Below, one piece after another: positions 10,626 to 62,971 of a stretch of 64,000 nucleotides of DNA. The translations under genes were made by a program, and so were the position numbers. The DNA is from Pohlia nutans (lineage: Eukaryota; Streptophyta; Bryopsida; Bryales; Mniaceae). Every line of letters starts with the position of its first letter. Position 1 is the first letter of the stretch. A model generated the notes under the pieces. It was not told the origin of the DNA. It did not search any database and worked only from the letters and a program-made list of their open reading frames with translations. The stretch lies in NCBI GenBank assembly GCA_022496805.1, contig CM040107.1:11924501-11988500 (forward strand), read 5' to 3'.

Positions 10626-10899
10626 ATACGGTAAAGCTTTGCATGTCTATTGGCGGTAAAAGGGAAATGATGGGAGAAAAAGGGGGAAATAAAGGGCAGC
10701 TAGGAGACCACCAAGAACTGCTCTAATTAGTACAACGGATTACCATAAATAGTAGTCCACCCCTGACACATACTACGCAGAAATGGGCAGTACAGTAACG
10801 TGATTCTCCGAACGAGGGAAGGAACGCTTGCACATCCTGTTGTTCGGCTTTCCCAGAATGAAGAAGCAATAACCATGGCGCATGGATCATTCCTCCAAT

Positions 10900-11365: not shown

Positions 11366-11560
11366 GTGCGTCACCTCGTTATTTTGCAGCACATTTGGGT
11401 CTCTCTTGCGCTGACGGTGCTCTTTTGTCTTGGATTGGTAACAGTGCATGCTCAAGAGCGTGGGTGCTTGCAGAGGGACTCCGAATTGCTTGGAGGAGGG
11501 GGGTTTTTTTTAAAATTTCATCTTTGAAACCCTAATCGCAGTGCATCACACGTTGCTCCC

Positions 11561-14347: not shown

Positions 14348-17300
14348 ATGGGAGGGAGGAGGACCTTATGGGAGCCATGGTATATTATAAAACCCGATGG
14401 TAAAATGGAGTGCTAACTATGTTCAACAGCAATCAGCTACCGGAAGGACCGCCTACTGTGGCATTTGGGTTGGAGGCGGGATGAAAACATATCAGGGGTC
14501 AGACGTTGTACTAATGCGAGTGCAGCTGTGAAAGCTTTGTTTCATAATTGCGGGGGTAACGTGCCCCCAACTCTTGAGGTTGAGAATGACCGCGAGATGG
14601 AGGATACGTCACCGGCAGCAAATCCCGTGCACGGGCCGGGCGGAGATAGGAACATGGAGACATCGGTGTCAGCGTCAGTAGGAGGAGGGGGAAACACCAC
14701 TATCACGGGTTCACACGTTCGTTCATTGGAGCCGCTAGAGTCAAATGTACCACCCATCCGGACCATGAGGCAAGTATCATTACCGGAAGGTATGAATACA
14801 TCGAATAAACAAGTGTTGGACAAGAAGTGGGCTAATTTCTTTTATGAGGCTAACATACCGTTCAACGTGGCAAAGCACCCCGCCTTTGTGGACGCAGTTG
14901 AGGCAATGTCCAAATCCAAAGTCGTGTACAAGCCTCCCCCGTACAATGCGATTCGGACGAAGCTTATGAAAGCCGCAAAGGACGAGGTCGCAACAATGGT
15001 GAACGAGAAAACAAAGGGCTCGATCCACAAGTATGGCGTGACGATTTGCTCAGATGGATGGGACAATATGACAAACCGACCGTTGATCAATGTTATGTTG
15101 GCATGTACAAGCGGAGAGGTTTTTCTGGGTTCGGTTGACACTACGGGAGAACGTAAAGACGCAAATTACGTGGCAAATTTCATGATCAATTACATTGAGG
15201 CGGTTGGCGCAGAGAACGTGGTACAAGTTTGCACTGACAACGCTGCAAACATGATTGCAACAGGCGAACTGTTGGTACGTCGATTCCTACACGTTTATTT
15301 TCAAGGGTGTGCTGCACACGCTTTAGATCTCTTATTGGAAGACTGGGGGAAGGAAAGATGGGTGAAGAACATGATGAAACATGTGCGGGCCATAGTGTCT
15401 TTCATTCGCACGCACCACATGCCGCCTGCCATATTCCGTCGACATTCTCCGAATTTGATACTGAAGAATCCGGTTGAAACACGGTTTGCAACTGCATTTC
15501 TAATGGTGGATTGATTGGTGAAAGTCCAACAAGCCGTGGTACAGACGGTCGTGGACCCGGATTGGAACGACTACGTGGACAGGCTAACAAAACCGGCGAC
15601 AAGGACGAAAGCAAACACGGCTAGACGATACGTGCGATCAGATGGGTTCTGGGAGACCTGTGTAAATTTCGTGCACATGGTGGAGCCCGTGTTAGTAGCG
15701 TTGCGCGAGTTCGACGGGAAGCACCCATGCATGGGCAAAGCATGGTTAGTAATGAAGAATGTGGAGAAGCACGTCTTTTCGTTACGGGACCCACCATTTT
15801 CACTGAACGAGGAACTTGCCGAGAGTGCAGAAGACCAATTTCAGTCCCGGTGGCACATGTTGAGGATAGATCTGCACTACGCAGGTGCTCTCCTGAATCC
15901 CTATCTACTGGACGAGGTCACCCTGATAGATGACCGGGAGGCTACAGAGGCCGTAGTCAGAGTGTTGCGCAAATTAACGACGAACAATGTTGCATTCGCA
16001 TTAGCGTTGTCAGAATATCATTCATTCAGGGACCACCGAGGGGTATTTGCTGGACTTCCAATCGCGGCTGCGTTGAATTTGGAACCACATGAATGGTGGG
16101 ACCTACTTGGCGCTGGAGCTCACACGCTTGCACCGATTGCAAAACGAATTCTTGCACAAGTGTGTTCTGCTTCATCTTGCGAACGAAACTGGAGCATGTA
16201 CTCATTTGTACACAACAAGGTCCGCAACCGACTAACATCCGAACGAGCAGAGGAGTTGGTTTACATTTACACCAACGCAAGGACCCTCCGAGATAGGGGC
16301 GGCGCAAACTCCGCAGCATGGTATGCGAACAACATGTTGTCCAAAGACTCTATAATAGAGGAATCTGATGGTCTGGACTGGGGGTCTATATTTTCTGATT
16401 CAGATAATTACGACTCGGACGACGACGATGATGCACCATTCGGCAGGAACCCTGGAAGGGGACCAAGACGCCCGGTAAATGACCCAGCCGTGTTTGATTT
16501 TAATGACGTTGACAATAACTACGGCGACGACGACGGAGACAACGGTGGAGGGCCGGAGCTAGCCAATCCAATGGACAATGGTGAGAACGAGGATGTCCCT
16601 GCAGTACCGCCAGTACCAGAAAACAACAATGACACTATAGTGGTTGAAGAACCAGCAATTATGGCAAGCCTCGAGGAGCAACAAGATGGACAAGGAGAGG
16701 AGGCTAATGAAGTAGTTGGTACCCAAGAATCGTCTCCAAATTCTCCACACCGAGAAGGTAATTCAGGTGATCGACAGGAAATGGCACCGGTACAGTTGCA
16801 AGCAGCCTTTCGTAGGCTTCGTCGCCCCCCGTCGGACAGTGTGGATGTTCTTACTCTATCCACCCAAGACTCATCAGTACCGTCCTCGTCAGCAATGCCC
16901 CCGACACGCCCCCGTGAAATTGGTCCATCGATAGGTACGCGGTTGACCGGTTTAGGCCCAACTTCGAATATGACACTGCGCACGAGAGAAATCCGACCGA
17001 TAGAAAGAAGTGGACCTCAAAGGACCAATCCCCAGAAGCGTCCACGAGAACAACTCCCTCGACTTTCTCACAACGACCGTGCAACTCCAACTACCCGGAC
17101 CACCCGCAGAAATAAGCGTATACGGCAATCTACCCAACCGTTTGCTGGCAAAGTCAATTTAGGAGGGCCAAATACAAATGGTGTTCTGGATGCAAGCGGT
17201 CGACGACCTCTAAAAACACTTTCCTCTCTTGAACCACGCATCGAAAACCGACATCGCAACAGCCTTGCCGGGAGTAGCAGTACAAGATCTGACGATAATG

Positions 17301-17464
17301 AAACCACAAACGACACCGCAGGTAATAGCGGTGAGGTTCCGGGAGATAGCGATTTCGTAGTGAACCGACCAGGCCCACCCCCAAGCCCGGACAACGATAG
17401 AGCGGACCCAGGAGCACCTAACGCTGGCACCTTTGTCCGAGTAACTAGGAATGCAATACATTGA
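14348..17464 (+). pseudogene. hAT transposase with two in-frame stops
   Basis: One reading frame from ATG 14348 to TGA 17462, interrupted by TAA at 14414-14416 and TGA at 15512-15514. Before the first stop and after it the frame reads KMEC-stop-LC...LLWHLGWRRD, a BED zinc finger whose CxxC pair holds the stop. Then DUF659 with CSDGWDN (about 15047) and CTDNAANM (about 15230), which supply two acidic residues of the RNase H-like core. Then, after the TGA, the hATC dimerisation domain from PHEWWDLLG (about 16085) through ASSCERNWSMYSFVHNK. The C-terminal third is acidic and then Ser/Thr/Arg-rich, probably disordered. The TGA sits in LMVD-stop-LVKVQ, where related transposases commonly have Arg, so CGA to TGA is likely. 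Cut-and-paste transposase by family; this copy should not make a full protein. I could not define terminal inverted repeats or an 8-bp target duplication. Confidence 0.93.
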
Positions 17465-22964: not shown

Positions 22965-23848
22965 GTAATTTATAGATATAGAAGTTCTCTTTGTTGTAGA
23001 GAGTGGCGAAGATTAGACTTTTGAGATGGATGAATAGTTGATACGTATATTAGTTGTCTTAGTTGTACAGTGTAGCGATGAATGCACTACGAATTTGCTT
23101 GTTTTTAGATGTTTAGATATATATACTTTATCAATTTTATTAAAATAGATTGGCAATGTATTGATTGTTGATTATTATTAATAGCATACTTGACTGTTTT
23201 CATTATTTTTTTCCAACATAATTCACTAGGAACTTTGAATTGAATTTTTGTTTAAGATGTTTCATTTATTTTCGCATGCGACTATCAGTTTTTCAATAAA
23301 TGTTGGAATTGTTGACATTGCGGATTACTATGGTCTCTCTAGATTTTGAATGAGATGGATTAATTCAAAGATTCTTTGTTGGTCGTCCTACTCCCTAAAT
23401 CTAAGAATAGTAATTTCAAATGTGTTTTGGCATTTACAAGTCTCAATTCAGGAATGCTAGCTTGTGACCCTAGGAGCGTGAGCTTGAGATCCTAAGAGTC
23501 TGAGAGCACAGAAAAATTTCATGTATTTTTAATTTTTTCACGGAAGGACCTATGACCGTGGGATCTTGTTATTTTGCGTTTTTTAGGGTGAATGCGGATG
23601 TTTAGAACGGCCAATTACTTCATATGCTACATTTGTGCAATTTGATCATTAAAACTCAACGGTTTAGGGTTTAGGGTTTAGGCATAGAAAATTAAAACAC
23701 TAAAAAGTGAAGAAAACAAATCAATGAGGTTGGAGAATAGGGTTTCGGGTGTGGAGTACAACATCGATGTCTAAAATCCAAAGTAGTGGCCCTTTTAGTC
23801 TCACTACGAACATGATAAAGAAAGAAGTACAAGTATGAGTAGAGAACA
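22965..23848. other. AT-rich intergenic with telomere-like motif
   Basis: No gene. Three consecutive TTTAGGG units at about 23661-23682. Short words such as GACCGTGGGATCTTG (about 23552) match the degenerate TGACCGTG tract at 56.4-56.6 kb. Confidence 0.5.
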
Positions 23849-24969
23849 TCAAAGTTTTGCTAAGTCATCACTAGAATTACCTGTACTAGTAGACTCTGAG
23901 CAAAAGCTAGATGTAGAGTGGTTTGGTGAACTAAATCCCTCACAATCAGACTCCTCAGCCTTAACGTCAAGGTATACTAGTGCCTCCGAGTTCAAATCCT
24001 TTGGCTGTGAAATGTGATCTCTAATTCCTTGACATGCAAACGCTTGTGCAACCGGCTCAATGTAGATTGGCAAAACAAAAGATTTAGGTGGGCTCTCCAA
24101 AAACTCAGGCCTTGCAAAAAATGGCCTTTGTGAATAAGAAGTCGTGGGCTTTATTTTTCTACACAAAACAATAAAAATAGAGATGATAACACCTTCATCC
24201 TTTAAACAAAGACGATATTGACTTCATTGAATTCAAATTTACTTACTGAATCGAGATTTCTTCAATACTCGAGCGACCGCTGTCGGAATTGCGTCTGGGT
24301 CTTCCGATGCAAATGATGAAGCAACAATTGGCTCAGGTTTTGGTTTGCGTGCACGTCGCATCGATAAAAGCAATCCATCAAATTGGGCTTGGTCCTCCTC
24401 GAGTGCTTCGATATGGCGTTGCACACGGCGATATGCCAACAACGAAGCCCCTGTTTCAATGCCCACAAAGAAGTTTATAAACACTAAAAACGATAAAATG
24501 AATGAGCATTTAACAGATTTGAATACTGGCGAGTTTTAGCCACAATGGTGCGTGATTGGGACACTTGGCCATCGAGAGCAGAGCCATCTAGAGCTGGATC
24601 CAGGCACCACGATCAACTTATAGTGACGCGCTGGCACCCAAGGGAAATTCCGCCGACAACCATACTGTGATCACCTCCACGATTGGATAGGAATTGGCCT
24701 TCCTACAGTTATACTACACACACGCCTGGAGTCAATGCGGTAGCACCCGCACCACCAACTCCAGGAAACCACGACGACGATCAAAGAAGTGGTATAGCCT
24801 TAGTGACCACAAAGTGCGTAGTATGATACCCGAGCAGTGTAAGGGAACACAACGAGCCATTCCACCAATAGCACTGACGAGAAGACACGAGCTGACAAAG
24901 CAACAAAAGGAGCCGGTACACTACTGACAGTGCTATGACACCACTATCCTGAACACTACTAGCAATGGC

Positions 24970-26640
24970 GTGATGCCCTGAGGGCAATCCCAACACTCCA
25001 AAATCCTGATTCCGAAACTAGGCATGTAGGGTCTGGATAGGCCACGCCACATTGTTGCTCTTTTAGCGAGCAAGGGGGATATACAGAATGAAGCAAGAGG
25101 ACAGACCTGTGTCCAGAAAGACCAAGACCAACAGACATACATAGTTCTGGTGTGACACCACGACCATGAGCACGAAACTAGCGTACCTAGCACGACACTG
25201 AAGTAATCCAGCACCAACAATAACATGAACACCATCTGGATTACTATACGCTTGGCCTAGACATAGTGACCCTAAATCGCTTTTTACGGTCACATAATTG
25301 GATAGCATAATTTAGACGTTGACCGTGAAACACCATGAGGCAGTACAACACTAGCACTTAGGGTCTTGAGAAGCACGAAACGCGGTACTCACTCCCCTTA
25401 ACGAAGACATCTGCCCCAACCGCATTATCAGCACTCTTTTAATCATGATTTCGAACGTTCATTAAGGGACAGGTCTCGCCACAGCGTCGCGAGATGTGAG
25501 CACGCTGGACATAGAAATCGTTTCGCGTGGCCAGAATGTACGCAACAACGCCTTGACCAGCACACTTGAAGCAATGGACACACTTGACCAACACACTTGA
25601 AGCAATGGACACACTTGACCAGCACACTTGAAGCACGTGGTAAACTTCTACAAGCATGCCTCTATGGCAATCCATCACCAAATGAACTGTGATCTCCAAA
25701 TCCCAATTACCAGGGGCTTGGCCTCACCACAGTCACCACAATATGAGAGAACTGGGCTATTGAAATGCTAGAAAATTCCATGACCCGGACGTAGAAATAC
25801 CACGAGCCAGGACACCAATATCAATGGCGTGATCAGGGTTTTAGAAAAGCACTTACTCACTGGCCCTTTAACGAAGCCATCGGTCCCGAGGGCAATCCCA
25901 GCACTCTCAAAATCATGATTCCAAACGCGTCCACTATGGCACTGGCCTCGCCAGAGTGTCACGAGATGCGAGCACGAAACCACTGAAATGGTAGAGAATT
26001 TCAAGGGCGTCATCAAGGATTAGAACAAGCACGCAAGGCATCGGCCCCGAGGGCAATCCCAGCGCTCTCAAAATTATGATTCCAAACGCGTCATCTAAAG
26101 GACAGGCCTCGCCAGACTGTCACGAGGTGCGAGCACGAAACCATTGAAATGGTAGAGAATTTCAAGGGCGTCATCAATGATTAGGACATGCACTCAAGGC
26201 ATCGGCCCCGAGGGCAGTCCCAGCACCGTGGGCATCATGATTCCTAGGTCGTCCATTGAGGAATAGGCATCGCCTAGAGTCCCGAAATGCGAGCACTGAT
26301 GACGTACAGAATGCCAGAGCTATACCCATAAACATCAAAACTAGAATACCTGCAGCAAAGCTATGAGACCACGAGCCAAAGCATGCAATAACCGTACTAC
26401 GAACAACGCTCGAGGGCAATCCAACATCGATGATGCAAGATCATCGATTACTAAAGGCCTAGCCTCGCCTTAAAATAAGAGCACTGGGCCACTAAAAAAA
26501 TAGCAAAATCCTTGACCTGGTTCAAAAACCACTACGAGGCAGCACGAGCAATGCCACAGGACTTTGTAAAAAAACATCAACCCTCGGGGGGAATCCCAAG
26601 ACTTGTAAATCAAAATCCCAACCTTGGATATAAAGGGACA
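24970..26640. repeat. Repeats in intron 11 of copy B
   Basis: A segment with TCGGCCCCGAGGGCAATCCC then AGC.CTCTCAAAAT.ATGATT recurs at about 25880, 26041 and 26211, with weaker copies at about 24979, 26409 and 26581. Around 25560-25640 a 33-bp unit (CACACTTGAAGCAATGGACA type) is repeated three times. TCGG..CCGA dyads of the same kind occur in introns of the second paralogue. ORFs here are minor. Confidence 0.7.
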
Positions 26641-26916
26641 TGTCTCGCCCGAGGGACAGTTCGAGCAATGGCAATGACGCCGCAGGCCAATACATGACGA
26701 TCACAGTACGAGCAGGATACAAGCACGATAGGAGCCAACGCGATGGCAGCGAAGGATACAGCCAGCGATACCGAAAGCATGGACTCGCATCGCCACATTA
26801 AAGATTTTCTATTAAGAAGAATTGAACAAGAAATTCAAAAACTAGATAGAATGGGAGAGAAATTAAATATTAAATAAAACCAAGACATAAAGAAAATGAA
26901 TGGAGGTAAAATGCAC

Positions 26917-27627
26917 ATGTCATGGCGGTGCAATCGAGGACGACATCATTGGGCCTAGAGGAGGCCTGAATCAACATTTGATGGAATTGACTGTCCCTCT
27001 CACAAGGGCCTCGCCAAGGCCTACTTCCATTGATGCTTTGCATGGCCTTCGTGGTGAAATTCTGCAACATGTCATCACAACCCAGGTCTAATCCAATTGC
27101 CTCAAGGGCTGGGATAGATTGAAATGAAAAACGTGCACGAGCGCTCTGCGGCAACACTCGAACCAAAAGATACACACCAAAGCGCTGAGTCTGCAACAGA
27201 CGTAACGAAGAGAGTTAGTTGATGAAAGCATCAAAACATTAACAACTCATTGAAAAATAGCTAGATACTGAGCACTCACAGTTTTGAGAGAGTTGACAGG
27301 TCATGCCACATGGAGCCTGTTCATGCAAGTCCAGTCCTTGAACAACGTAAATCCCGTAGCTTCACTGTATCCAAAGATGTTGGCTTTCGTTGACTGTTTG
27401 TATGGATGGACTATAGTAATAGCGCCATCATCGACCAAATGATTGTCTGCAAAGTCAAATATGGGGTCGAGCCAATCATCCTCAGTTGCATTCCACGAGG
27501 GAATTTGTCGTGGTGGATCTGAGATAGTTGGAACAGGCAAGTTCTCCGGCATGTCCACAATAATCAAATCCACACATGGTTCCTTACACGATTCCCCTTT
27601 GAATACTCGTGGTTGGTCCGCATTGTG
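26917..27627 (-). other. Exons 10-11 of copy B: methyltransferase-like core
   Basis: Exon 10 (27280-27627) reads CVDLIIVDMPENLPVP (about 27534-27575), the place of motif IV, then LVDDGAITIVHPY and FTLFKDWTCMNRL. Exon 11 (26917-27190) ends NDVVLDCTAMT (26917-26949), the place of motif I, and exon 12 (24243-24450) continues with SLLAYRRVQRHIEALEEDQ, matching the 'GR..IGIE.D' block that follows motif I. Motif IV before motif I is the beta-class order of N4-cytosine/N6-adenine methyltransferases. The catalytic DPPY is DMPE here, lacking the aromatic residue, so activity is doubtful. TGA 27301-27303 interrupts exon 10. Confidence 0.55.
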
Positions 27628-29818
27628 CTAGAACATAGAAAAAAACACACTTTAGTAAACAGACAGTTCCACACAGGCCTAAACAAACAGATTTGAAATA
27701 CATGGGGTTCATGAAGGTAGTCTCGAATCTTACCTCATCCAAGAAGTTTTGGATCTCCACAAACAATTTAGGAAGAGGATCATCACCGTTCTGTGGAAGA
27801 GCAGCTGCAACTGAAGTGTTGAGCACCAATTCGTCGATTTGATGGTCCTCTCCTAAGTCTACCAATTCACGCATTTGGCCACAAAATGCCTTGTCTTGTG
27901 ACAGCTCCAAGTTCTCAGAGTCTCATTTAGTACCCCTTTGCTCTTGGCTTCGGTGCTATGATTCTGCATCCACAACACTAGAAGAAGTTGGCTTTGGAAC
28001 TTCCTTTACCTTAGGACTTTGTTTCTTCTCTTCTTTGTTCGCAATCTTTAGTGCTACCCTCTCGATCTTGGCTTGTTCACGAGCCACAACCTTCTCTTGA
28101 TGAGTGGTGATTTTCATGGCATTCTTTCTGTCCTCAGCTTCAACCTTGGCAATGAGTTTAATTCGTGCCTCTTCATCAAGATTCTCCAATTCACCACCTA
28201 ACAAGGCAGGTTTATCTGCAGTCTCCGCCGTGGATTTGAGATCTCTTTCACCTGCATGAACATAACCCAATACACAATCCAAATACCACCCAACTCCCTT
28301 GAGATGTCTGCTGTTCCACGTTTTCAGCTGGGGTATAGAGAACATGCAGCTCTTGGAATGCCGATCCATCCAAGTTGTCAAGAACACAGGAAGGTCTGCC
28401 TTGGCAATGGCATTCTTTGCAAGAAGCTCGTGCATGAAATACCTGGAGTCAAATCATAGACAATACTTGTTACACATGATACAAACTTTTAAGATTTTAG
28501 CTTCAGAATATGGATTGCATTATCCAAATCATAAAAATATAAATTTACCTATAAACCATGCGTTTGACCACAAGTTCACTGCCTTTGTACTCTTTGAAGG
28601 AATCTGATTTCTTGAAATGCTCTGTTCCCTTGTAGATTGTTGGAAAAGCTTTGTCCCAAAGCTTGACACGCCAAGACTCAATAAACTGAGAAATAGTTCT
28701 AGGTTCGGTGGGGACACCCATGTTCAACGGAACGTTATCCTTGTGCACAATAGTCTCAAACAACTCCACTGCGGAGTCCTCAATCTACAAGAAAATTGTA
28801 TTTATATTAAAACCATGAAGATAGAGAGTTGAATCAATTGCAACAAAGCTAAAGACATGAAAGAAACCAATAACATTTCAATCCAACACTTACTCCTGCC
28901 TACCATGCGGCTCCTGTAACAAACGTATTGAGGCAATCCTGGTTTACAGGTCTAGAAAGGAATCAAACTACCTCTCTAGTGTGAACAGAGGAGTTCCACC
29001 ATTTCAACCATCGTAATTTGTGATGAGGAGGGACAGAGGTTGTGGCAATTAGCTGCAGTTTCTTTAATGTCAACTCTAACTGCGATGCGTTCATACTCCA
29101 ATGTCGTTCAATCTGCAAATGCAAAACAAATACACACATTAATAAAATGACTATAAACGAATGGCAAATAGTAAGGAAATGTAAATATGTCTTATACCTC
29201 CTGAAGAAATTCCGGTCGATGCGCAGGGTTGGCAACTGCGGTCATCTTGCCCAACTTCGTAACCAATTTTGATGTCTTCTCTTTGATGCCAAGCTTCATT
29301 GCAGTTGTGATGCCTTTGGGTGTGACATCCTCTGGTTTAGTTTCCTCTCGGTACACAAGTACGGCAGTGTCGCCTGCTGCAGCAATCTCTTGCTGCAAAA
29401 CAAACCAATTTTAGTTTATGTATCTAGATTTCATTTCAAAACCAAGTACTAGAATTAAAGCATGAGCACATTTTCAGTGGAGATGAGAGTCATTCAATAT
29501 AGTGGAGAGGAGAGTCATACCCGAAACATTAGAGCTGTAAAAACATCTGCTTGCAACGAATACCACCCTCTCTTAACAGAATTCTGACATCTGTACAATT
29601 CTTGACGACTGAGTAGCTCAGAGAAGTGTTCCAACGGCATCGTACCGAACTTGCAAACTTGATATAGTTGGTGCACCAGGTTTGTTTTCACGTGTGAAAA
29701 TTCTGTCAACGTAAAAAACATCGCATATGTCCACTGATGATTAGTTCATGTCAACTTGGATACAAAGATTGAAAAAAAACTGAAATGTAATTAAATTGAT
29801 AGAAGATTTGCCACTCAC

Positions 29819-30456
29819 TTGTGAATATCGTTCATGACGTTCATGAGCATGTCAACTCGACCTTTTGTCTCTAGAATTATAGTATCCACCGAGTAGTGCC
29901 ATGACCGAACATTGCAGTAAAGTCTCGTGATATGATTCATCCATGCAATGCGTCGATGATTCCCATCACAAATAGAGAACATCTTACCCTTCATGAACCG
30001 CAAGGAATCTTGGAAATCGAAGTACTCATCAAATTTGTCACTTTCTGATTGCCATATCGGTCCCCAATCACTTCGATCTTTAGATGTCACATGCTCACCA
30101 ATGCCTTGCTCATTCGTCAGTGATACATAGAAGACACAAGCACCGTCACGATAGCCATTCACAAATTCTTGTTCAAGCTTCACCAGGTCACATTGCAATG
30201 CTGGCCTTACCATAGGCATTACAACAAGCCTGCAGAGAGGAATGTTGTGTCGTGAGATGTTTAATGGTTGCAAGCGAAGAGCAGCCAGAGCTGCAACTGT
30301 GTTCAGCTTTTGAGATCGGCGAATATCATCTTCGTTGTTCCCATGAACTGTGTGGATGCCGGGAGTGTCCTCGTCTTCGTCATCTCCAATTGGGGGTTGA
30401 AGGGTATCGCTCTCCTCCTTGGCATCGTCCGAACACTACACCGCTGTCACGGGATC
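29819..30456 (-). other. Exon 3 of copy B: ParB/sulfiredoxin-like domain
   Basis: After a Asp/Glu-rich lead-in this exon reads LQPLNISRHNIPLCRLVVMP, then LVKLEQEFVNGYRDG, then VFYVSL, and finally MFSICDGNHRRIAWM (DGNHRR at 29950-29967), followed by a beta-alpha pair. ParB N-terminal domains share this order: IPL...I.P, a helix with E..I..G, a strand, and V.DG.HR..A. The DGNHRR block with the preceding strand is the clearest landmark. Assigned by eye; no helix-turn-helix parS-binding domain is seen after it. TAG at 30436-30438 lies near the exon start. Donor at 29813-29818 is a consensus GTGAGT. Confidence 0.55.
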
Positions 30457-30914
30457 CTACATGCAATTATAAAAAATGAACATCAGAATTAAGGTCTAAA
30501 GAATTATATACATGGGTACATAAGATCACCGCAAGCTCACGAGCTCAGCACATCAGGAGCCCAACGCACTACGAGCCCAATGCACCTTAACTACATCACA
30601 AAACCATCAATACTTGAGAGTGACGCCACGAGGCTACACCCAGCCCGCCCGCAGCACGAGTTGGACCACGACATTGCTAGCTCGTCACTGCTCACTACTC
30701 CAAGCTACAATTAGGAGAAATGCCCAAGGGCAGTTTCAGGACCTCAATGTCAAGATCACTATGTCATCAAAATTAGGATTAGAATCACCACAAAGGCTAG
30801 CAATGTAAGGACTAACGACATGGAGAGTAAAGCAAGCAACCCAGCACATGACCAGCCCCTGCGTCAAAACTCAAACACGACTTGAACTCAGTCGCCTAAT
30901 CTAAGGGACTGTCT

Positions 30915-33254
30915 TTGCCCAAGATCGGACTGCCGGTTCCGGATAAGTTGGTGCGCCCGGTTGCTCCTACCAATGCGGGACATAGGGAGCAGCTGCGGAA
31001 GGATTTGCACAAAATTGGTTGTGAGGAATTGCTGTACCTACCATGGGATCTCCACAGTGATGCTATGTTGCAGGAGTTAGGTGGAAAACCGGTACCGGCG
31101 GAATTCCGGGATAGCGAAATCCGGGGGCAGTGGAAGGAGTGGACCTCGAAACACTGGCGCGTGACGTACAAGTTCCTTAACAGCCCGTTTGGATGCGACA
31201 AGACCAAGCAGCATTCCGGATGGAAGAAGGAAAGGTTTTCTCAACCGGTTTCAGACAAGGATGGATTCCGGGTGGAGGACTGCATAGACGACCGGGAGAG
31301 GCGCCTGCTGCGGTTTCTGGTGCCTATTTTGAGCCCGGACAAACCCACCACCTGCACGATCAAGCTGATGAAGGCCATTTATGAGGCCTACCTCAACAAC
31401 CAGAAGACCGGACGGGGACTCATCGTGGACAAGATGGTGGTCCGGGAAGCGCGCAAACTCGGAAACAAGAAGGGATGTCCTCTAACCCCTTCTCTGTTTC
31501 ATTTGTATGACAAGCACGGATGTCTCACGGCCAGGGAGAGAGAGCAATGGGAGAACTACCGGAGGATCATGAACCGGGAGCCGCCAACGGCCCGGGAGGG
31601 GAATCCGGATGAGAGCGAGGACGAGGACAGCCCGGACGAGGAAGAACGGGAAGAGCAGGAAGGAAGAAGAGCGGACGAACAAGCAGCGGTCAATCCGGAT
31701 ATGGAGGAAGGCCAACCGGGGCCCTCGGAGACCCGAGCAGAAGAGGAGGAACCGGGTCAGAAGACACCGGTGAAGGCGGTCCACTTTAGGGCGCGCACCC
31801 GACGCCAACTCAAGAAACTCCAGGAGACTCTGGACGAATTGGAGTCCGAGGAGAAACCGAACCAGGAGACACCACCCCGAGGGCAGGTGAAGAGGCACCT
31901 GAGGATTCCGGAAGAAGAAGAGGAGGAAGTGGACCAGGACCACGACAAGATTGTGACCGGGGTTAGGGTACCACCGAAGAAGAAGCACAGGAAGACGACA
32001 CCGGTGGATAGCCGGAGAAAGAGAGGACGGGCACCGGAGTCGAACGGACGTCAGAAGAACGTCAAGGTGAAAACCAAGAGGGCGCGAGATTCGAAACCGG
32101 TGCGGGACGAAGAGGAGTACCCGGAGGAGATCCGGACTTATGAGCAGGCTCCCCGGAATGCAGGACCGAAACTGGAAGACATCCCCCTACGAGAATCGGA
32201 GGAGGACTTCCTCAAACCGGTCATGGAGGCATTAGAGACGATGGAAGGTAAGTACCGTCCCATCTGTACTTCGATGAAGGAAGTTGGGCGTATCATCCGA
32301 AGTACACAGGTGGAGAGGTACCCGGAGATTGTCCGGAAAATGGGGAAGGAAGTAGACAAGCTCCGGAGGGAAGCTTCGAAAAGGAACCTGGTACTGATAA
32401 GGCAACATGATGAGATCCGGGCTCTGGAGGAGCAGAAGTCGCCCACTTACTGGCTCCTCGCGTCGCTATTCAAACCAGATAGGGAGGCACAGACGGAGGC
32501 CCGGTTGTACCGCGAGAAGGTGGTCGAAGCTGGATTGGACGGTGCTGCCGAGGTGACGAATGTGGTAAAGAAGTACGCCGCAAGGGTCGAAGCAAGGTTG
32601 GTGGAATTCCGGAAACTGCTGGCGGAGCATCAAGCAAGATTCCCATCCGGGTCCGAACCGGATGAGAGGGTGGCAAATCAGAGAGGTATGAATGCACCCT
32701 TAGCCAGTAGTGAATTGTTGGCCGCATTCCATGTATCATAGGATGCAGCCAAAACGCGGGAGATGGATAGGATGATGGCCGGAGGCCAATCCACTCCGGA
32801 ACAGACTTCAACCGCTTGCGAGTCCGGAGGTGAGTATGCCGCGGAGGAATCCGGATGCCAGTATCAGAGGGGACCAGTCGGAGGCCAGCCTGGCTAATTT
32901 GGCAGACCAGGATGCTGATTTGGCGGAAACCGGAACCACCCCGGGTAGGAAGTTAGGACCCAGGGAAGACCAGGAGGTGGACGGCCAACCTGATGCAGGT
33001 GGCCAGGAAGACAGGACGGATGCCGGTGAGCCAGAGGAGTACGAAATGGATGCGAGCAAACCAGAGGAACACGAGACCTAGGAGGACGAGCCGGATGGAA
33101 GTCAACCAGAGTCTGAGGGGGAAGGTGACCAGGGGGAAGTCTGGGAGCGCCGGTCCAAGAAGAAGGAGGATGCTTCCCCGAAGTCCAACCAGGAAGAGGA
33201 TGGGGGCTCTGATGGCGACCGGGTCAATGGCCCGGAGGGGCAGGAAGATCAATA
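30915..33254 (+). mobile_element. Gag-like ORF of a nested element in intron 2 of copy B
   Basis: A 608-codon frame (30915-32741), on the strand opposite to the host gene, continues after a TAG at 32739-32741 and a frame change near 32830 to 33254 (another TAG at 33079-33081). N-terminal 200 residues are globular (WKEWTSKHWRVTYKFL, FLVPILSPDKP, LTPSLFHLYDKHGCLT). The middle is very rich in Glu, Lys and Arg (several EEEEEE-like runs, basic KKKHRKT) and the C-terminal third is helical and charged. This is how gag-like or element-specific nucleic-acid-binding ORFs look, but I recognise no zinc knuckle and no pol follows. CCGG words are strikingly frequent. It could be a non-autonomous LTR element; LTRs were not identified. 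Confidence 0.45.
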
Positions 33255-34560
33255 GGATCCGGGTTGCAGTGTGAACCGGATCAGGCTAGGGAGTAGGCAT
33301 TAGGCTAGGTAGACTAGCCCGCATGTACATAGGACCTTTTTGTGTGGTAGGTTAGGCGCTTTTGCCAGTAGGATAGGATTGGGATCTTTTGGTTGTGATT
33401 TCCCTTGATTTCCGGATCCCGGGTTTGTAGGATCTGGGCGGGAAATCCGGTCCAGTGGTTGAAGACCACTACTTGCCCAGGAATGCTTGGCATTCTTGGG
33501 GTCTTCTTGTATTACTATTTCCTTGAAAGCAAACTGCTGTAGAGCACTATCCGAAAATTGTGTATGTGCTGTGGGGTTGTTTGTGGAATGGTACAGTAGT
33601 CAAGAGTCCCTTGGTAACCGGGTAGGCAGTCCGGGTTCTCGAGTGATTCGGGTGTGAAGTCTGAATATGGTTTTTGGGTGATTTGAGGACTGTTTGAAAG
33701 AGTGGTTTCTAAGTTCCGTACGCTAGGTAATCCGGGTTAGTGGCTAGGCAGGTAGGAGGGGGTACTCCGGGTTGCACAGAACTCCTGGACGGGTAGTCTG
33801 GTTGAGGTGCCAGCACTCGGAAGGTCCAGGCGAGGCGAAATACGGGATCACGGGAGTAAAACAGGGCGCTAGAATTCCTGAATACTAGTTTCGGACTCCC
33901 CGGATAGTGTCTATTCCGGTTAGTAAGTCGTTGTAGTGATTGGAAGAAAGGGGAAACCGGATTGCGCTTGCGTGACACGGCTGCGGGTTGGGTAAAACTA
34001 GCAGTTGAAAGGGCAGTACGGTAAGTACCCGGGATTAGGAGTTTTGTGAGTTAGGATAATCGAAAGGTAGTGAAGTTCCCATCACTTGAATCAGCAGGAA
34101 GGGTGTGTCTTTAAATCCAGCACCGCTAAATGTAAATGGAGAACCCTCTGAAGGAAAACAGAGGTTAATGTAAACCGGTTTGAGTTGTTCGGATAGACCG
34201 GACAGAGTAGGGTTGGATAAATTCCCAACTCGGACGAAAACCGGATCTAGCCGTAACCGGGTCAGTCAGTAGGAGAAGGCCCGGTTCAGTAGGAAAGAGG
34301 AATTCAGCAGGTAACAGAGAGAGAGAGATCACCAGTCCGGGACCATCTCTGGAAACTTCCCACTTCACAGAATCTCCACGGAATGATAACCCGGAAATCA
34401 CCTCTACGAGCGTTCTTAATACAAAAAAGTGCGTTCTAGGGGAATATCCGGTATCACGTGCTACGACAAACATAGACACAATACACAATATACCACAAAC
34501 ATAGACAGAATACACGTGACAGCCCAGTAAGGCCACGAGAAATGCAGAGTGATGCCCCGA
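33255..34560. other. Non-coding CCGG-rich tail of the nested element
   Basis: No ORF of substance. Frequent CCGG/ACCGGG words continue from the gag-like ORF to about 34460, so the element probably ends near there. A short direct repeat (CAAACATAGACA-AATACAC) lies at about 34466-34515. Confidence 0.45.
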
Positions 34561-34935
34561 GCCAGCCTACCACCGAAACCTTCTAATACATGACGAGCTT
34601 GACAAGAGCCAAGATGCCTAAACCATGTACTTAGGCCTCGGCCCCGAGGGTACTCTCAGGACCCCCAATTTCATGATCAGTTGCACGTCACGATTTATGA
34701 CTCAATCGAGCCCGACACGAGTCATGACTCTGGCACCCACACTAAGGCCTCTAGCCAGTGCGCTACAAGCCCATACACACAATGACAATACGAGCACACC
34801 AAGATAAAGCGAGTTACAGAAGGAGACATCACATCAGCACTGGAGTCACCAGACGCGCAGGCTGCAATCTCGATCATACTAAGGAGTCTCACATTATGGT
34901 ATTGACAACATAGGGATGATGGGGAGGACACTTAC
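34561..34935. other. Remainder of intron 2 of copy B
   Basis: Resembles the repeats of intron 11: TCGGCCCCGAGGGTACTCTC at about 34639 followed by a CATGATCA word. No gene. Confidence 0.5.
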
Positions 34936-35290
34936 ATTAGCTGTTGGCTGGGAGGTTTGAGCTTGATCCTGCGGCCTCGTCATCTCTTGCGCTTCGGTCT
35001 CCGCAACAGGCACCTGAAAGAACAGGGGCTTGGTGTGGCACTCAAAATCAATCACAATTAAAGTGTATATATAAAGTTGTACAACACGGCCTAATTGTGG
35101 ACTTAGAACACCACCAACGAAACAAGACAAGTGCGTGCATGGAAAATGATATCAAGGTAAGGGACTTGGTGATACCTGGCCCGTCATGTTAGGATCTGGT
35201 GGATCAGGTCCCTTTGCTGCAACTTGCGCACCTCTCTTCCTCCCCATCGCAATCTAGAATTCCCATTGGTAAAATCCATCATCAGAAAGG

Positions 35291-35710
35291 TTAATGGAAT
35301 AGATCACAAGTGTTTTCATAGCATACAAAGCTAGGACAACATTGAAACGAGAGTGTATACCCACAACGGTGAAAGAGCTCCTGTTTCGGCCACGTCCCCA
35401 CCTCTACGATCCTCGCAGTCCATGCCTCCACGGTCCCTTGTGCAATACTCTTGAGGTATTCCAGAACCCTCAGCAAGAAATGTAGAGCATAGGAAGGACT
35501 CTGAGACGAGACAGTGCCGTCGCAAACATTCGCTAGGGCCAGGCGTGGCCTAGCTGGAGGAGACGGCGTGCACGTTGTCCGCTGGATCGGAGGTGCAAGG
35601 GCAGGACGACGGCGACAGTGCGAGCAACGTGTACTTTGCACGACGCAGCCGTGCTGGAGCGGAGCCAAACCTAACTCGCGGATCCAGTAGCTAAGGTATT
35701 GGCCAGTCAC
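35291..35710 (-). other. Possible 5' UTR exon of copy B
   Basis: GC-rich open minus-strand stretch just upstream of the copy B first coding exon, ending at a plausible donor (GTGG followed by GTATAC at about 35355). The encoded sequence is Cys/Pro/Arg-rich and I recognise nothing; a leader exon is more likely than protein coding. Confidence 0.25.
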
Positions 35711-36224
35711 GAGCCCTGGTGAAGACAGCCGATACTAGCCCTAATTAAGGCTACTCTGTTCGTCACCCTACTTTAAGTCCAATCCTGAATGGAATCTTCG
35801 TCTCTAATATTCATTGCAACAAGGACTATGCATTACGGCATAATCTCTTAGGACGTGCACGAAACAGCTCTAATCAAAGAACATAGCCAACTTATTATAA
35901 GAGTATTCGTGTGTATTATTTCGATGGATTTTCAATAGACTAAACTTCACATTCCCTAAGTCAAGGTATGACGTTACATGTCAAATCAGACCACGTTCAA
36001 TTTCATATAAAAAATATAGATGTGGATCACAGTTGTTTGCGGATGCAGCTACATTGTTGACTCCTCCGTCACACTTGATTACGTGCTTTGCCTCGTTCTA
36101 ATGGTCTTTCCAATCAATGAATTAGCGTAGGTTATAGTTGATAATTACTAATGTTATACTCTACATCATTCGACAACTGTCCATCATGTACAACAATAGA
36201 ATTGCATCTAGAAATATTGACTTA
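35711..36224. other. AT-rich intergenic, no gene seen
   Basis: Nothing supported; no repeat or RNA gene recognised. Confidence 0.4.
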
Positions 36225-36525
36225 CAATTGTTTGAGTACTATCGCTTTCGTGAAATTTGACGTAGTCTTCAGTTGTGCCTTCGGGTTTCTCTTTAGTCGC
36301 AAGCACTTCTTGCGCACTCGCTATATTCGTGATGTCCTCTTCTCCGAAATCAATCCTTAGAGCCAAGCTCTTCTGAACTCCTGTCAATCGTGTCATCTGC
36401 TTAGATGCTCTCATCCTAGAACGCTCTAGCTCACGCTTGCTTGAATACAAAAGCCGCCCTCTTCTTCTCCTCTTCTTGTGCGTGATCACAGACTCTAAAT
36501 TCTTAGAATCTTCTCCGTCTAGCAT
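36225..36525 (-). other. Possible exon encoding a basic peptide
   Basis: Minus-strand open stretch reading LDGEDSKNLESVITHKKRRR and on to KRELERSRMRASKQMTRLTG, ending at an ATT/GTAAGT donor near 36225. The KKRRRRGR run would serve as a nuclear localisation signal. Its partner exons are not identified; it may be an upstream exon of copy B or a separate gene. Confidence 0.3.
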
Positions 36526-37210
36526 TTGCCCAGCGAGTGTTAGAACATAGAAATACTGTGGTTAAGCACATTATCTCAAAGTAAATGCGAGCATACCTAA
36601 TCTCAAAGACGTATTATTGTTTGTCAAACGTCGGCTATGAATACTTCGTTCCGTAATACTAACTATAATAACCAATGGATTAGTTTTGATGTTATCTATA
36701 TATGACATGGTCATGGCTTTTTCCAATCGAAGATGTTTGCTATAAATATATTCTCACAATTTCAATATTCCAACTCAGGTTGTATTATTCTTCGCTATCT
36801 ATAGTGTGAATGAATTCAATCACCGGATTTAGGCTCGTGTACCAACTTGCACGCTCTATATCAATATTTGGTGACAGGCACATGATGTCTTAGTTATTAT
36901 GAAATACGAACGCTTGCTATAGAATGTAATTCCACGTTCTCCCTATCTTTACTGCGCCGACTTTGATAGCACTAAATATTATAGCCTACATCCAAGCCTA
37001 GAAGGTCGTAGCGTCAAACGCTTGTCAAATGTCAATCATAGACATTGAATTTGACACTAACGTTAAGAATATGGTCCGCCTAAATGACTGTAACACTGCA
37101 TATCCGAATTCCTATATGTGAGCGTCTACACTCGACTTCATTGCCTTCATCGCTGTTGGTTACGCGCACACATCTGACGCAACTAAATCTCAACGACAGT
37201 CATCGATGCT
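36526..37210. other. AT-rich intergenic, no gene seen
   Basis: Nothing supported. Confidence 0.4.
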
Positions 37211-37674
37211 TTGGAGGATCGCAGCATTGAAGATGTGCTCGACTTGGAAACCATTGGGAGATTGACAATGCCAAACGAAGAAGACTATCCCGTAGTATCA
37301 AGGAATGGACGTTTGGTGCGGATGTCAAATCCCATCAACAGCTTGGAGGGTGCGGTGGAATTGTGGATGGGCGAATTCCCAAACTGTCATGACTATGTCA
37401 TCGACCTCGCAATCATCCTGCTAGACAAAGATCGACTTTGATTTTACCGAGTCCCGTGTGGAATTTGGGACTCCTACCCTCGTCATCCTCTTGTCAGGAG
37501 GCTCATATGGTCTCATTATGTTTGCAAAATGCTGGGACTCCCCGATCCTTGCAACCTCGAAAGCGAGGGTGTTTCAATTGTGCCAGAGGAGATTGCCGCT
37601 ACCGTCCGGGACTTCTTTGACGATGAACCCAAGCCTCCATTTTGGGGATCCGTTCCCAACACCATGCCCATCTA
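37211..37674 (+). pseudogene. Orphan ORF with one in-frame TGA
   Basis: Frame beginning MEDRSIEDVLDLETIGRL runs to a TGA at 37439-37441 (LDKDRL-stop-FYRVPCGIWDSY) and continues in frame to TAA at 37672-37674, ending WGSVPNTMPI. Both halves look coding (balanced composition, no low complexity) and the joint reads smoothly if the stop was CGA (Arg). About 154 codons. I recognise no family. It may be the 5' part of the SWIM-finger element that follows on the same strand. Confidence 0.4.
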
Positions 37675-38182
37675 ATTGATTGGTTATTGATAGGGCTTCC
37701 TAGCTACGTTAGTGGAGGCTGCTACTCAGATTGTTATGATTAAAGTCTAAATATCCTAGTACATTCCCGATTGGTTTCATATTTTTTATTCAATTGTTAT
37801 TATAGTACCGACCGCTATAGAAGGTTCGTCTATAGTTCATATAGATTAGTCCTACAAAAAGCAACACTTTCATGAAGACTGTGTCTTCATAGTATAAATA
37901 AACCTCAACAACAACTTGTTCACGTGAATATTATATCACTTTATGTTGTGTGACCAAGCCAACTCTGAATTAGATTCTTCCCACTTGCAATACATCCACT
38001 CATGGACTTTGGACTGCGCGCTGATGTATGTGACACACTACATGCTTATTCTATTTGAATTAGCCTGCGCCGTAGAACGTTCTGACATTCATTAGATTAG
38101 ACATATGCTTAAAGTGAAATTGATGTCAGTTGCAAGGCGACTCCAATCTTAGACCTATGTCACTGTTCGAACTTCCCGTCCG
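37675..38182. other. AT-rich spacer
   Basis: No gene seen. Confidence 0.4.
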
Positions 38183-41130
38183 ATGTTCGTCAAAGCCCTC
38201 CTCCGGATTCGTCCATTGTATGTAAAGTCTGCAAGAAACCCTCACCTTGTCGTGACTATTGGACAGCGTGGGTGTATTACGTTCTCAACGTCAACGACAG
38301 GTCTCGTGCATGTATCCATTTGGGCTTTCATCGACATTCCGTTGCTGAAGGACAGTGCAGGGAGTCTATGGAGACCATCACCGGCTTGATTGCATTGAAG
38401 GTGGTGAAGACTCCCACCGCCAAGAACATAGCTATCGCTCTTGCAGCTAGCAAAGAGTTTCTCGAGACATTTCTTGTCCACAGTGGACCTCGTCCAAAAC
38501 AGATGCTGCAAGGACAAGAATTGGACAAGGTGATGGACAAGTTTCGCATGCTGAGTTCTCCTAACGTTCAGAACATGATCACCACGTTTCGCGCACAAGG
38601 CAAAGGCAAAGGCAAGATTGATCAAATTCTGGAGATGAAGAGGCATGCGAAGATCGAGTTCATACACGAAAGTGTGTTCCCGGGCCAAGGCCAGGAAAAG
38701 GTTTATCTCTTCAAAATGCTCGTGCATGGCCCCGGGAGAGGTGTCGACCTTGTGGGAGGGATGCAACTCGGAGGTACCTGCTGAATTGCTTCGTCATGTT
38801 TGATCACGTGAAAAGAGTGAAGCAATGGACCACTATTGCCTGCCATGTTTATGACTCCACGTACTGCAAGGTGATGACCATCGCGCGCTGTCTGCGATAT
38901 GCAAACGGAAGGCACTGAGGGACAGCTTATATTCTGGCGTTGCCTGAACAAAGTGATGGACAACAACGGCGCACCAAATCCAAACTTCAATGGTTTCATG
39001 TGTGATAGCGTACGAGCAAACTTTAATGCAGTGCGAATTGTCTACGGCTCGGGCAATCCTTCCGTGCCCATGGTAGACTGTGAAAGAACTTGTCTATTCC
39101 ATTGGGCAACAAGTATGCACAAGCACATTGAGAAGTTGATCGCCAAGGACTTCCAGAGTCAACACATTAGGCTTTGCAAACAATATAAGGATGCCAAAAC
39201 AATGGAGGAAGCTGACAAGATGTACATTGAGTTGAGAGCGTGGTGGTACTCTTCTGGTGCTGCTTCAGAACATGCGATTTGCAAGCTTGAAGACTGGTTG
39301 GCTTTTTGGCATTTTTGCTACAGGCAATGGGGCGGTTTCATGGAAACGGTAAATTATCAAAAGCCCTCTTTCACTTCACGAGGATGTTTGGTATATGTTG
39401 TAGTCCCTCGGAGTCGATGGTCCTTCCTCCGTGATTGCATGTATTTTGACAAGGTCAAGTATTGAACCGGTTGCTCCTAAACCTTCCACTACATATAAAT
39501 TCATATCAACATAGAGCACTTAGAAAATAGCCGTCGGCCCCGAGGGCTATATTTTTCAGAATTTTTTTTTGATTTTTTGCAAATCATAGATAAAAAAAAA
39601 CAGAAAAACAAATAAACATTTGTACTATCATTTGAAAGTGAGTATTTGTGTATCTATCACTCCAACGTAATTAGCATTATACGTTTTGGTAATAGTGTAA
39701 TCAAAGTTATCGTGTGCAATAATATAAACTGGGTGATGCAATTTCTGCAGAATCTTACCGTAGATGAACTCGCAGACATCCCAACCTGCAACCTTGCAGA
39801 GATCGTTCACAACAAGTAGAGGCAAGCCTCCGGGAAGCGAGGCTCAAACCTCTTTGTCGCCACCACCGATGATTGGGTCGGTGCTTTCATGCAGATGACC
39901 AACTATAGAACATTTCTATGTGGAGGTCCGTCTCGAACTGGTTTGTCCAAGCACGATCTAAAACTGAAGAGGGCTATAACATCCCATGACGGCAAGAAGA
40001 TCGCCGAAGCAATTAACAACATGCCTGGGGCTACGGAGGTTTCTACACGAGTTCTACATTTGGAAAGAGAAGAGGTGTTTGGCTCGTCCAAGAGAAAGCT
40101 CGACATGCCAGTGGGTTGCAAAGGAGATTCTCATCGTCCTGACAAGGTGAACTTCTCGCATCCACGTGTCCAAACACGATCAGCCGCTCCTGGAATGAAC
40201 TCGGAGGAATCACCAAGACCTACTTCTCCGGTTCCATTCACAACTAGGGTGTTGGAGACTGACTGTGACACCTCGAAATGGCACATTCCAAGGATATCAC
40301 ACAAGTCCAGAAGGCAGTGTCATGCAGTGCAAGCGGGGAATGGCAGCAAGTGCAACATGTTGATTGCGAAGGGCGGTAAGGCCACAGCTGCCCCAACCTA
40401 CCGAGGCACTAGGACAGAGTACAAAGGGACTAAACCTCAGACGGTTGATTTCTGGTTTTGTCCTGACCAAATCGCACGATGCGTCATGGGACCGAAGCGC
40501 TTCTTTTTCATACACCGTCCGGATATCCCTGATGTTTGGCCCGTCCTCTCCGGTACAAACCTCACGCGTTCGGAGATTCTAGAGCTCGAAAAAGCAGGGT
40601 TTCACCTTGGGTCTACTACAGCCCTTTTGCCTCGACGCCTGTTTACGACGTCGAAGGTGTTTGAGCCCATCATTTGGACTCACCCAAGGCCTTTGCATGC
40701 TGACAGAGTGCCATCTTCTCGAAATGGCAAAAACGTGCGTCAAAACACCAAGGCTCCCACAGAGGCTCACCGGAATCAATGGGAAAGCGCACGAAATGTC
40801 AAGGCAAATATTCTCCGCGTAAACCTCCTCCACTACCCCGGCCTTGGTGCCATCATCGTGCTCCAGTCCGGGGTGGAGCCCGATGATAATTTGTTTAATA
40901 TCACATTGTGCAATTTTCCGTCATATACGTGCCCACATTATGCGAGCATGAATTCTTCAGTTGTTAAGAGGCGTGGCCAGTACGTCAACTGCAAGCACCT
41001 CTACTACATCTTTCGATTCTTTTGCAAGTTGGACTATAAAGTTGACACATACATCCATGCTCCTACTCTCAGCTTGGATGAGGTTAAGAAGATTCTTCTG
41101 GCTGCTGGGATCATCAAGACTGAGGAATGA
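38183..41130 (+). pseudogene. SWIM-finger transposase-like gene (MULE-type), broken
   Basis: Plus-strand relic in several frames. 38272-38784 reads YYVLNVNDRSRACIHLGFHR; a frameshift leads to KRVKQWTTIACHVYDSTYCK; another near 38885 leads to 38899-39465 with TEGTEGQLIFWRCLNKVM, FNGFMCDSVRANFNAVRIVY and WLAFWHFCYRQWGGFM, typical of a transposase core with acidic residues (family by eye: MULE-like). After a non-coding gap (39466-39850) a clean 413-codon frame, 39889-41130, ends with YTCPHY...NCKHLYYIF, the place of a SWIM zinc finger (CxC...CxH). Its first Cys is Tyr (TAT at 40924-40926), a G-to-A change relative to the copy at 55.6 kb, which keeps GCSCPSF. Cut-and-paste element inferred; ends not defined. 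Confidence 0.6.
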
Positions 41131-41959
41131 GGACCAATCGGTGTTGAGACGGGGAGACTAGAACCAGAATCAATAGCTTACTACTTTAACTATATGATGC
41201 CCTATTTCGAATTGGTTGAAGTAATTGCATGATAAGTTTGACCAGTAGAACTATGTATTACAAAAAACGAAAAAAATAAAATACTACATATAGATCCAGA
41301 TGTTCTCTTTCTGTTCTTTGTCTCTTTTCAAGAAGCTCACCGGATGGGGTTGAATTTCACCCATGTACTCTATAATTTTCCATTTATTTACCCTAAACCT
41401 TTAACATTAAACTACACTAAGTACTAACCCACGGTTATAGGTCCAGCGGTCATAGGGTGCCAAAATTGACTATTATTAGTAATAAATCTAAAAATAGTAT
41501 TTTATTTTCTAAAATTAGAGTCATTTTCTAAGTTCAGATGGATTCTAAGCTCTTGGCTCCCCAAATCCCCGCTCTCCGCTCTTGGGCTCTCCTCTCTTGG
41601 CTCGCAAGCTAGCGTCGTTGGTCTCAATTTATTGAAATGTCTCAATGTAATGAACCCTTTTTATGATCTAAAGTCGCAAAATAGTAATTTCAAATGTATT
41701 TTGGCATTTAAAAGTCTCAATTTATTGAAATGTCTCAATTTGATTAACACTTTTTATGATCTAAATATAGAAGGGATTAAAATGAGACTACAACTTGTTT
41801 CATTTTAACGAATAAGGCACGGTCCTGACTTTAGTTGCCGACACAATTGTCTACTATCGTCTAAAGCTTACTGGGTTCCTGCAGTTTTTATCTTTTTTCA
41901 CCCACATCCACGTTTGGAGTATAGCGAAATTGGAGAAAGCTTGTGGGCGATCTATGTTG
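41131..41959. other. Intergenic with dispersed-repeat copy
   Basis: About 41430-41620 repeats the CCACGGTTATAGGTCC ... CCCCGCTCTCCGCTC pattern found near 18.3 and 56.2 kb. CTAAACCTTTAA and other short words, no gene. A CTCAATTTATTGAAATGTCT word at about 41625 recurs at about 41715, suggesting a local duplication of about 90 bp. Confidence 0.45.
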
Positions 41960-54918: not shown

Positions 54919-55009
54919 CGGCGTGTATGGTGGGCAAATGCAACAGGGGAGCTTGGATTTTGCTCAATGCTTCTAACTCTCTTCTGATGTCATTGGCCGC
55001 GGTAAGTAT

Positions 55010-62697: not shown

Positions 62698-62971
62698 CCA
62701 CTATCCCTTAGAATCTTCTCATGAATGCTAACTTTATGACAAATGTTCTACAAATATTCGAATATCGACGAATGAGGGCACTACGTATCACATCAACAGT
62801 CAATATGTTTACTCCCGCAAGGTTTTGAGATGCGAGTATGTAACCTGTCGGCACCGACGGGCTATGGAGGTATGATATTTGTTCGCAGTCCCCTGAGCGA
62901 ATTCAACATCGACTACTTACACTGAGAATGGTTCCATGGAAACAAGCAAGGATTGAGACTAGCAAGGAGTC

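Follow-up and report, generated by a model that had tools for sequence, protein, structure and literature searches.

A damaged ParB-methyltransferase-like gene carried by a high-copy DNA transposon in the moss Pohlia nutans

Introduction

Why does a moss genome hold an intron-rich gene that joins a ParB-like part to an amino-methyltransferase-like part? The question is raised by a window of Pohlia nutans DNA (the whole stretch analysed, 64,000 nucleotides; C23:11924501-11988500, contig CM040107.1, of a 698-Mb assembly with 332 contigs), which contains two such genes, copy A and copy B; all positions below are those of the window. A sequence-only reading had described copy B as a fusion gene in a plant-type genome, and the plant-type genome is confirmed by the NAC domain, with 62 exon matches against none in 14 control genomes. 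We propose, with a probability of roughly 0.6, that copy B is the damaged accessory gene of a high-copy plant transposon, and that its product, probably composed of a ParB/sulfiredoxin-like domain and a D-x-P-E domain with the predicted methyltransferase fold, would help the element to spread via the element's own DNA. This proposal starts from features that were observed rather than predicted: for the element, its ends, target duplications, copy number and divergent partner gene; for the protein, the selection acting on it, the permuted order of its motifs and a changed motif IV.

Copy B lies within a DNA transposon

The limits of the element became visible on alignment with two full-length relatives on other chromosomes (contigs C5 and C17).

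23449-41620, unstranded: whole DNA transposon, the copy B element (18 kb), with later inserts of its own; homology to both full-length relatives stops sharply at both ends
23449-23470, plus strand: terminal inverted repeat, low end (CAGGAATGCTAGCTTGTGACCC)
41599-41620, minus strand: terminal inverted repeat at the high end (CAACGACGCTAGCTTGCGAGCC as read on that strand)
23440-23448, plus strand: target-site duplication, low side (GTCTCAATT)
41621-41629, plus strand: target-site duplication, high side (GTCTCAATT)

The termini form imperfect inverted repeats of about 22 bp and read CAACGACGCTAGCGTGCGAGCC and CGGGAATGCTAGCATGTGAGCC in the relatives. Direct repeats flank all three full-length copies (AATTGAGAC for copy B, GTTCTTCTT for C17 and CCCTTTATTA for C5), two of them 9 bp long and one 10 bp. 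Searched against the whole genome, copy B produced 197 matches to exons, 47 of 5243 candidate places having been scored, and the family comprises at least 47 loci, copy B included, counted among the matches listed. For the left end, the sequences of the three copies were blended into a query of 88 bases; all 40 places scored (of 697 candidates) matched it at 98-100%, which implies that the family moved recently. Since introns are common to the copies, these spread as DNA; the intron-rich eukaryotic form that had been suspected from copy B is upheld. Matches were present on each of the contigs C1-C23 when the searches with copy B, the copy A frame and the ParB exon were pooled.

Tandem repeats lie between the two genes of the element in the C5 and C17 copies. 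A 9-base word common in the repeats of copy B, C5 and C17 was looked for and none was found. Some copies occur as pairs with equal scores, at 547 and 669 kb on C13 (122 kb apart) and at 24.44 and 24.50 Mb on C19 (58 kb apart), which suggests segmental duplication besides transposition.

The gene and its damage

Copy B is a multi-exon gene on the minus strand, with exons from 35247 down to 24239. The borders of exons 3-11 are readable as GT-AG, some of them after a shift of 1-4 bases, and a rough sum of the exons gives a product of about 1000 amino acids.

36388-36531, minus strand: short conserved coding stretch upstream (LLYSSKRELERSRMRASKQM), an exon or a small gene; 71 and 73% identity in two relatives
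35176-35247, minus strand: exon 1 (MGRKRGAQ...), with a counterpart in each of the two full-length relatives (E 4e-6 and 1e-5)
34936-35013, minus strand: exon 2 of the sequence-only reading, doubtful; splice-like borders, counterpart in 0 of 2 full-length relatives
30931-34581, unstranded: insert upstream of exon 3, overlapping a 613-amino-acid open frame; unmatched in the L005, L010, C5 and C17 copies
29819-30456, minus strand: exon 3, ParB/sulfiredoxin-like domain with DGNHR (DGNHRRIAW); one stop near its start
29521-29702, minus strand: exon 4
29198-29392, minus strand: exon 5
28972-29112, minus strand: exon 6
28549-28784, minus strand: exon 7
27734-28442, minus strand: exon 8, two in-frame stops
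27280-27627, minus strand: exon 9, methylase-like motif IV (VDLIIVDMPENLPVP; VDMPENLP); one in-frame stop near its end
26917-27190, minus strand: exon 10, running into motif I (NDVVLDCTAMT, with VVLDCTAMT)
24509-26889, unstranded: repeat-rich insert between exons 10 and 11, unmatched in the relatives compared
24239-24450, minus strand: exon 11, block past motif I (ASLLAYRRVQRHIEALEEDQ; RHIEALEEDQ), the same block being present in relatives

With at least four in-frame stops (at the start of exon 3, two in exon 8 and one near the end of exon 9) copy B is a dead copy, while the family itself is living. Its exon order and recognisable introns recur in related copies elsewhere in the genome. The insert upstream of exon 3 contains, on the plus strand at 30900-32741, the charged 613-amino-acid open frame, which has no Pfam match.

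Probably one gene, in several families

That the two parts belong together had been claimed from a hand-spliced reading of copy B, the objection being that the exons might come from different genes. The quoted peptides do lie on the minus strand at the places given, and the genome offers many further instances. An upstream ParB exon on the same strand was found within 30 kb of 89 of the 124 methylase-body loci listed, at a median distance of 6.4 kb, compared with a mean of 0.69 for random placement; five further loci have a nearby ParB exon in another arrangement, and a methylase body lies downstream of 92 of 150 ParB exons. The lists behind this pairing were compiled by hand and some control chromosome lengths were estimated. 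Such co-occurrence speaks against the objection, and as far as DNA can show the ParB and methylase parts probably form one gene.

Copy A represents a distant family of the same gene type:

60242-63802, minus strand: copy A, 3' part of the gene, continuing past the window end

It is 23-40% identical to copy B, and its ParB exon lies just beyond the window end (locus L069). A search with its open frame (60308-61153) gave 145 matches (138 of 2273 candidates scored); some 30 of the loci belong to its own family, and a further 90-100 or so are 33-42% identical. Its ParB exon gave 151 matches (150 of 1360 candidates scored). Among the copy A relatives fetched, open frames reach 530 amino acids. Downstream of copy A a small open frame (CYEWKEYGNCSHCMEP...) is located on the minus strand at 58388-58975, and an overlapping segment, 58703-59430, is shared at about 96-98% with most other fetched family-A loci; family-A elements may carry another gene. 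An intron of copy A holds tandem repeats of 128 bp and 86 bp (62376-62631 and 62879-63652); in L045, another copy of family A, a repeat of 97 bp occupies the site of the first of them.

Identity of the two domains

For the C-terminal part, an AlphaFold2 model submitted to Foldseek matched CcrM at E 3e-7, and all 50 listed rows were amino-methyltransferases; blocks of the predicted core have predicted local distance difference test (pLDDT) values of 65-92. Apart from a weak match to CcrM, sequence searches that included the PDB gave nothing above cut-off. Beta-class amino-methyltransferases are nevertheless what the sequence-profile, profile-profile and fold searches all indicate. Motif IV precedes motif I within single open frames of families A and C, and in copy B the order of motif IV, motif I and the RHIEALEEDQ block runs through exons 9, 10 and 11, so that the beta-class order read by hand holds. 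The C-terminal part is therefore predicted to have the fold of a beta-class amino-methyltransferase.

The ParB/sulfiredoxin fold of the N-terminal part is predicted less surely. Its Foldseek count was 8 of 15, and a PHROG ParB-like match was obtained in 6 of 16 rows, weakly (best E 0.082). A phage ParB profile compared with the plant ParB part gave 0.4%, not above shuffles. DGNHR is present in 16 of 16 ParB-exon rows, and the ParB/sulfiredoxin superfamily has a nucleotide-binding motif of the G-x-H-R type.

Family databases recognise the protein poorly. Pfam and NCBIfam searches of the gene products gave nothing above cut-off, the best Pfam N6_N4_Mtase value being E 0.095, in 1 of 19 rows. Run over the whole genome, the same model (PF01555) had no match, with 150 of 230 candidates scored, a result that is uninformative on other methylases as the model misses the ParB-methylase-like genes too. 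With 7991 candidates scored, a full spliced protein had no database relative at E<=1. When diverse copies were combined into a profile, 92 database relatives were recovered, all named 'hypothetical protein' save one labelled 'tRNA G10 N-methylase Trm11'; no relative was confirmed on viral contigs.

A changed active site

Motif IV was looked for in 111 sequences, namely the 92 database proteins and 19 alignment rows. It was readable in 85 (26 gave no reading, and one of the 85, NHQK, is plainly at the wrong place); among these, the first Asp is kept in 81, the third-position Pro in 80, Glu or Asp stands at the Tyr place in 77, and Leu follows two places on in 84. The resulting consensus, D-x-P-[E/D]-x-L-x-V-P, is conserved, one row (L064) reading DPPD, and [DNS]PP[YFW] occurs in 0 of 111. 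As the change is common to families that are about 35% identical, it is not the decay of single copies. Motif I is of the A-x-x-T-G type, for instance AAGTG, AAATG and TAMTG in the printed sequences, where FxGxG is absent, and D-x-A-A-x-T-G is kept in several families. A search for undamaged members with DPPY and FxGxG had been proposed in the sequence-only reading, and neither motif turned up in these respective sets.

In amino-methyltransferases the flipped base is held by stacking against the aromatic residue of motif IV. With that residue gone, ordinary amino-methylation by this protein appears doubtful. A non-catalytic partner has a precedent in METTL14, which has EPPL, and we know of no active relative with a D-x-P-E motif.

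Selection between copies

The ratio of nonsynonymous to synonymous substitution rates (dN/dS) was computed by the Nei-Gojobori method on pairs that are not independent. The median was 0.18 at dS 0.50 for the methylase part of family C (55 of 55 pairs), and 0.10 at dS 0.65 for the ParB exon of family B (21 of 21 pairs). Of the 28 pairs in a mixed ParB set, 13 could be used and had a median of 0.15; another ParB set gave 0.27 (1 of 6 pairs usable). Family A had a median of 0.45 at dS 0.06 (66 of 66 pairs), and the three youngest pairs of the family-A, -B and -C sets ranged from 0.3 to 1.1. The protein is under purifying selection, with dN/dS of about 0.1-0.2 between older copies. This pattern fits a gene needed during the spread of the element and useless after insertion.

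The earlier alternative of a domesticated or element-borne system can be divided. The element-borne half stands on the target duplications of the three full-length copies; domestication is not indicated, because these copies are transposons and the youngest copies lose constraint.

A divergent transposase-like partner

Upstream of copy B and on the opposite strand lies the second gene of the element:

38113-38784, plus strand: transposase-like gene, Cys-rich piece
38878-39465, plus strand: transposase-like gene, piece with GFMCDS..AN..AVRIVYGSG
39820-41130, plus strand: transposase-like gene, C-terminal piece; the last frame of the C5 relative ends in a CxC..CxH SWIM-like motif

A transposase-like gene is found upstream and divergent within 40 kb in 29 of the 47 copy B family loci, where 0.26 would be expected; this count is based on hand-compiled lists with 149 of 150 transposase places and on random control chromosomes set to 30 Mb. 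At 20 of the 40 left ends, the gene lies 2.3-3.2 kb inside. The transposase-like core has 246 relatives at E<=0.01, and a Pfam name is attached to 0 of the 120 listed. Among 15 relatives, Pfam gave no match to a Mutator-like element (MULE) or other transposase family, and a PDB search with the transposase profile returned nothing convincing. The Cys/His and CxC..CxH motifs were seen by eye only.

Other features of the window

Several features lie apart from the two gene copies. An open frame on the plus strand at 15515-17464 with a hAT-type dimerisation domain (PF05699, E 3.3e-8) belongs to a different DNA transposon. Between copies A and B, an open frame on the minus strand at 53461-54963 has weak similarity to aspartic proteases (E 0.026) and is perhaps a retroelement. 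A partial protein kinase domain (E 2.7e-6, below the Pfam cut-off) is present in an open frame on the plus strand at 11528-13216, and 9039-10636 is a long array with a unit of 8 bp (ACAATATG and variants).

Discussion

What might such a protein do for its element? We favour a DNA-binding accessory or anti-silencing role. The N-terminal domain would bind a nucleotide, and together with the C-terminal domain it might clamp element DNA, perhaps at the tandem repeats that separate the two genes. Given D-x-A-A-x-T-G in several families, S-adenosylmethionine may still be a ligand of the C-terminal domain; lacking the stacking Tyr, however, this domain is not expected to methylate flipped-out bases in the normal manner. 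The protein could then serve as a methylase that is altered or non-catalytic and that aids transposition or keeps host silencing off the element, much as VANC serves VANDAL. Since the targets of VANC are often tandem repeats and the C5 and C17 elements hold tandem repeats, a self-targeting DNA-binding protein is proposed, with a ParB-like clamp and a methylase-like body that lacks normal catalysis. A wider picture, rather less likely than not, is offered tentatively: land plants would host a large and diverse group of recently active DNA transposons that captured a phage-type ParB-methylase as their second gene. Now a pseudo-enzyme with a fixed D-x-P-E, it would have retained its body for recognising DNA and binding the cofactor, and would act as a self-targeting anti-silencing clamp.

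The product might instead be a working DNA amino-methyltransferase (N6-methyladenine, 6mA, or N4-methylcytosine, 4mC) with an unusual motif that marks its own element, as has been proposed for algal transposon proteins. Active enzymes have this fold, this permuted order and this block after motif I; motif IV still holds its first Asp and a Pro (81 and 80 of 85), several families have D-x-A-A-x-T-G in motif I, and the domain pair of Ectocarpus has been predicted to make 4mC or 6mA (PMC12477816, in the part available). However, Glu or Asp occupies the base-holding aromatic place in 77 of 85 and no [DNS]PP[YFW] remains in the 111, so we regard continued catalysis as unlikely, and the DNA modification system once suggested for this locus is not supported as a working one. 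The presence of 6mA or 4mC should not be assumed from a methylase-like gene in a plant genome. A little better placed, though still rather improbable, is direct help with transposition (binding of the ends, replication or integration) unrelated to silencing, with which the divergent arrangement at 29 of 47 loci, the strong selection during spread and the second genes of such kind described for MULEs (PMC6446971, in excerpt) all agree.

Two more sceptical explanations have very little left to them. Introns kept in the copies, purifying selection and the few equal-score copies 58-122 kb apart, resembling segmental duplicates, would suit an ordinary or domesticated plant gene family copied by normal gene duplication. 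Against it stands that three of three full-length copies have sharp ends with inverted termini and are flanked by direct target duplications, that near-identical ends are dispersed in the genome, that every contig C1-C23 has matches and that the youngest pairs have dN/dS of 0.3-1.1; for family B it is already contradicted. Equally hard to credit is chance resemblance of a lineage-specific protein to the named domains: Pfam and NCBIfam hits are indeed all below cut-off, including the single N6_N4_Mtase row, yet three kinds of search agree on beta-class amino-methyltransferases, which already contradicts it for the methylase part.

Comparison with known systems

A damaged accessory gene of a transposon, as we read copy B, can be set beside several described systems. 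Prophage ParB-DNA methyltransferase fusions are known from the met genes of Wolbachia prophages (PMC3089641, in excerpt). The phage fusions compared here (IMG/VR loci L084-L129) have the same domain order with motif IV before motif I; their DPPYNVPI aligns over DxPEGLPVP, and the motif I block aligns as well. They keep DPPY, and the four printed have a GSG-type motif I and a ParB GHGR, whereas the plant ParB part has DGNHR and a longer middle and gives no significant profile match. CcrM and other beta-class amino-methyltransferases share the predicted fold and motif order with the plant protein, which differs from them by the absence of DPPY, a degenerate motif I, the ParB-like fusion and its many introns.

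MULEs make target duplications of 8-11 bp and several carry extra genes; the element described here resembles them in its 9-bp duplications, inverted termini, CxC..CxH near the end of the transposase-like protein and extra gene (PMC6446971, in excerpt). It differs in that its inverted repeats are only about 22 bp and imperfect, and its transposase-like protein has no Pfam MULE match.

The closest description is that of Sola1-1_Ec32 of Ectocarpus, a 21.5-kb DNA transposon with an accessory protein of 1104 amino acids, ParB-like plus N4C/N6A-type methyltransferase, encoded opposite to the transposase; similar proteins in green and red algal transposons are cited in the same source (PMC12477816, in the part available). 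The domain pair (the ParB part here being likely), the large DNA transposon, the strand opposite to the transposase and the length are alike. Compared by description only, the moss element differs: its host is a plant, its target duplications measure 9-10 bp, the gene has many introns and D-x-P-E, and the copy number is very high. The target site of Sola elements is 4 bp. ParB-methyltransferase genes in transposons are thus already known from algae, so the find is not categorically new; the differences lie in the plant host, the target-duplication length, a copy number that is very high here, and the altered active site. Among the titles and abstracts listed by literature searches limited to open-licence papers, none was on such a gene in bryophytes.

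With respect to the proposed role, VANC of VANDAL is the nearest model: it makes elements of its own kind lose DNA methylation over their whole length, and it often targets tandem repeats that vary between related elements (PMC5735166, in excerpt). Both are second proteins of plant DNA transposons that hold tandem repeats of their own. The function of VANC is experimental, that of the moss protein is deduced, and no sequence relation is claimed. Known from a few algal transposons, the ParB-methylase accessory gene occurs in a plant genome as well; its copies there are very numerous and under selection, and its catalytic motif is swapped for another conserved one. If the protein does bind its element and counter silencing, it would be a second transposon anti-silencing protein beside VANC, built from a bacterial DNA-modification enzyme.

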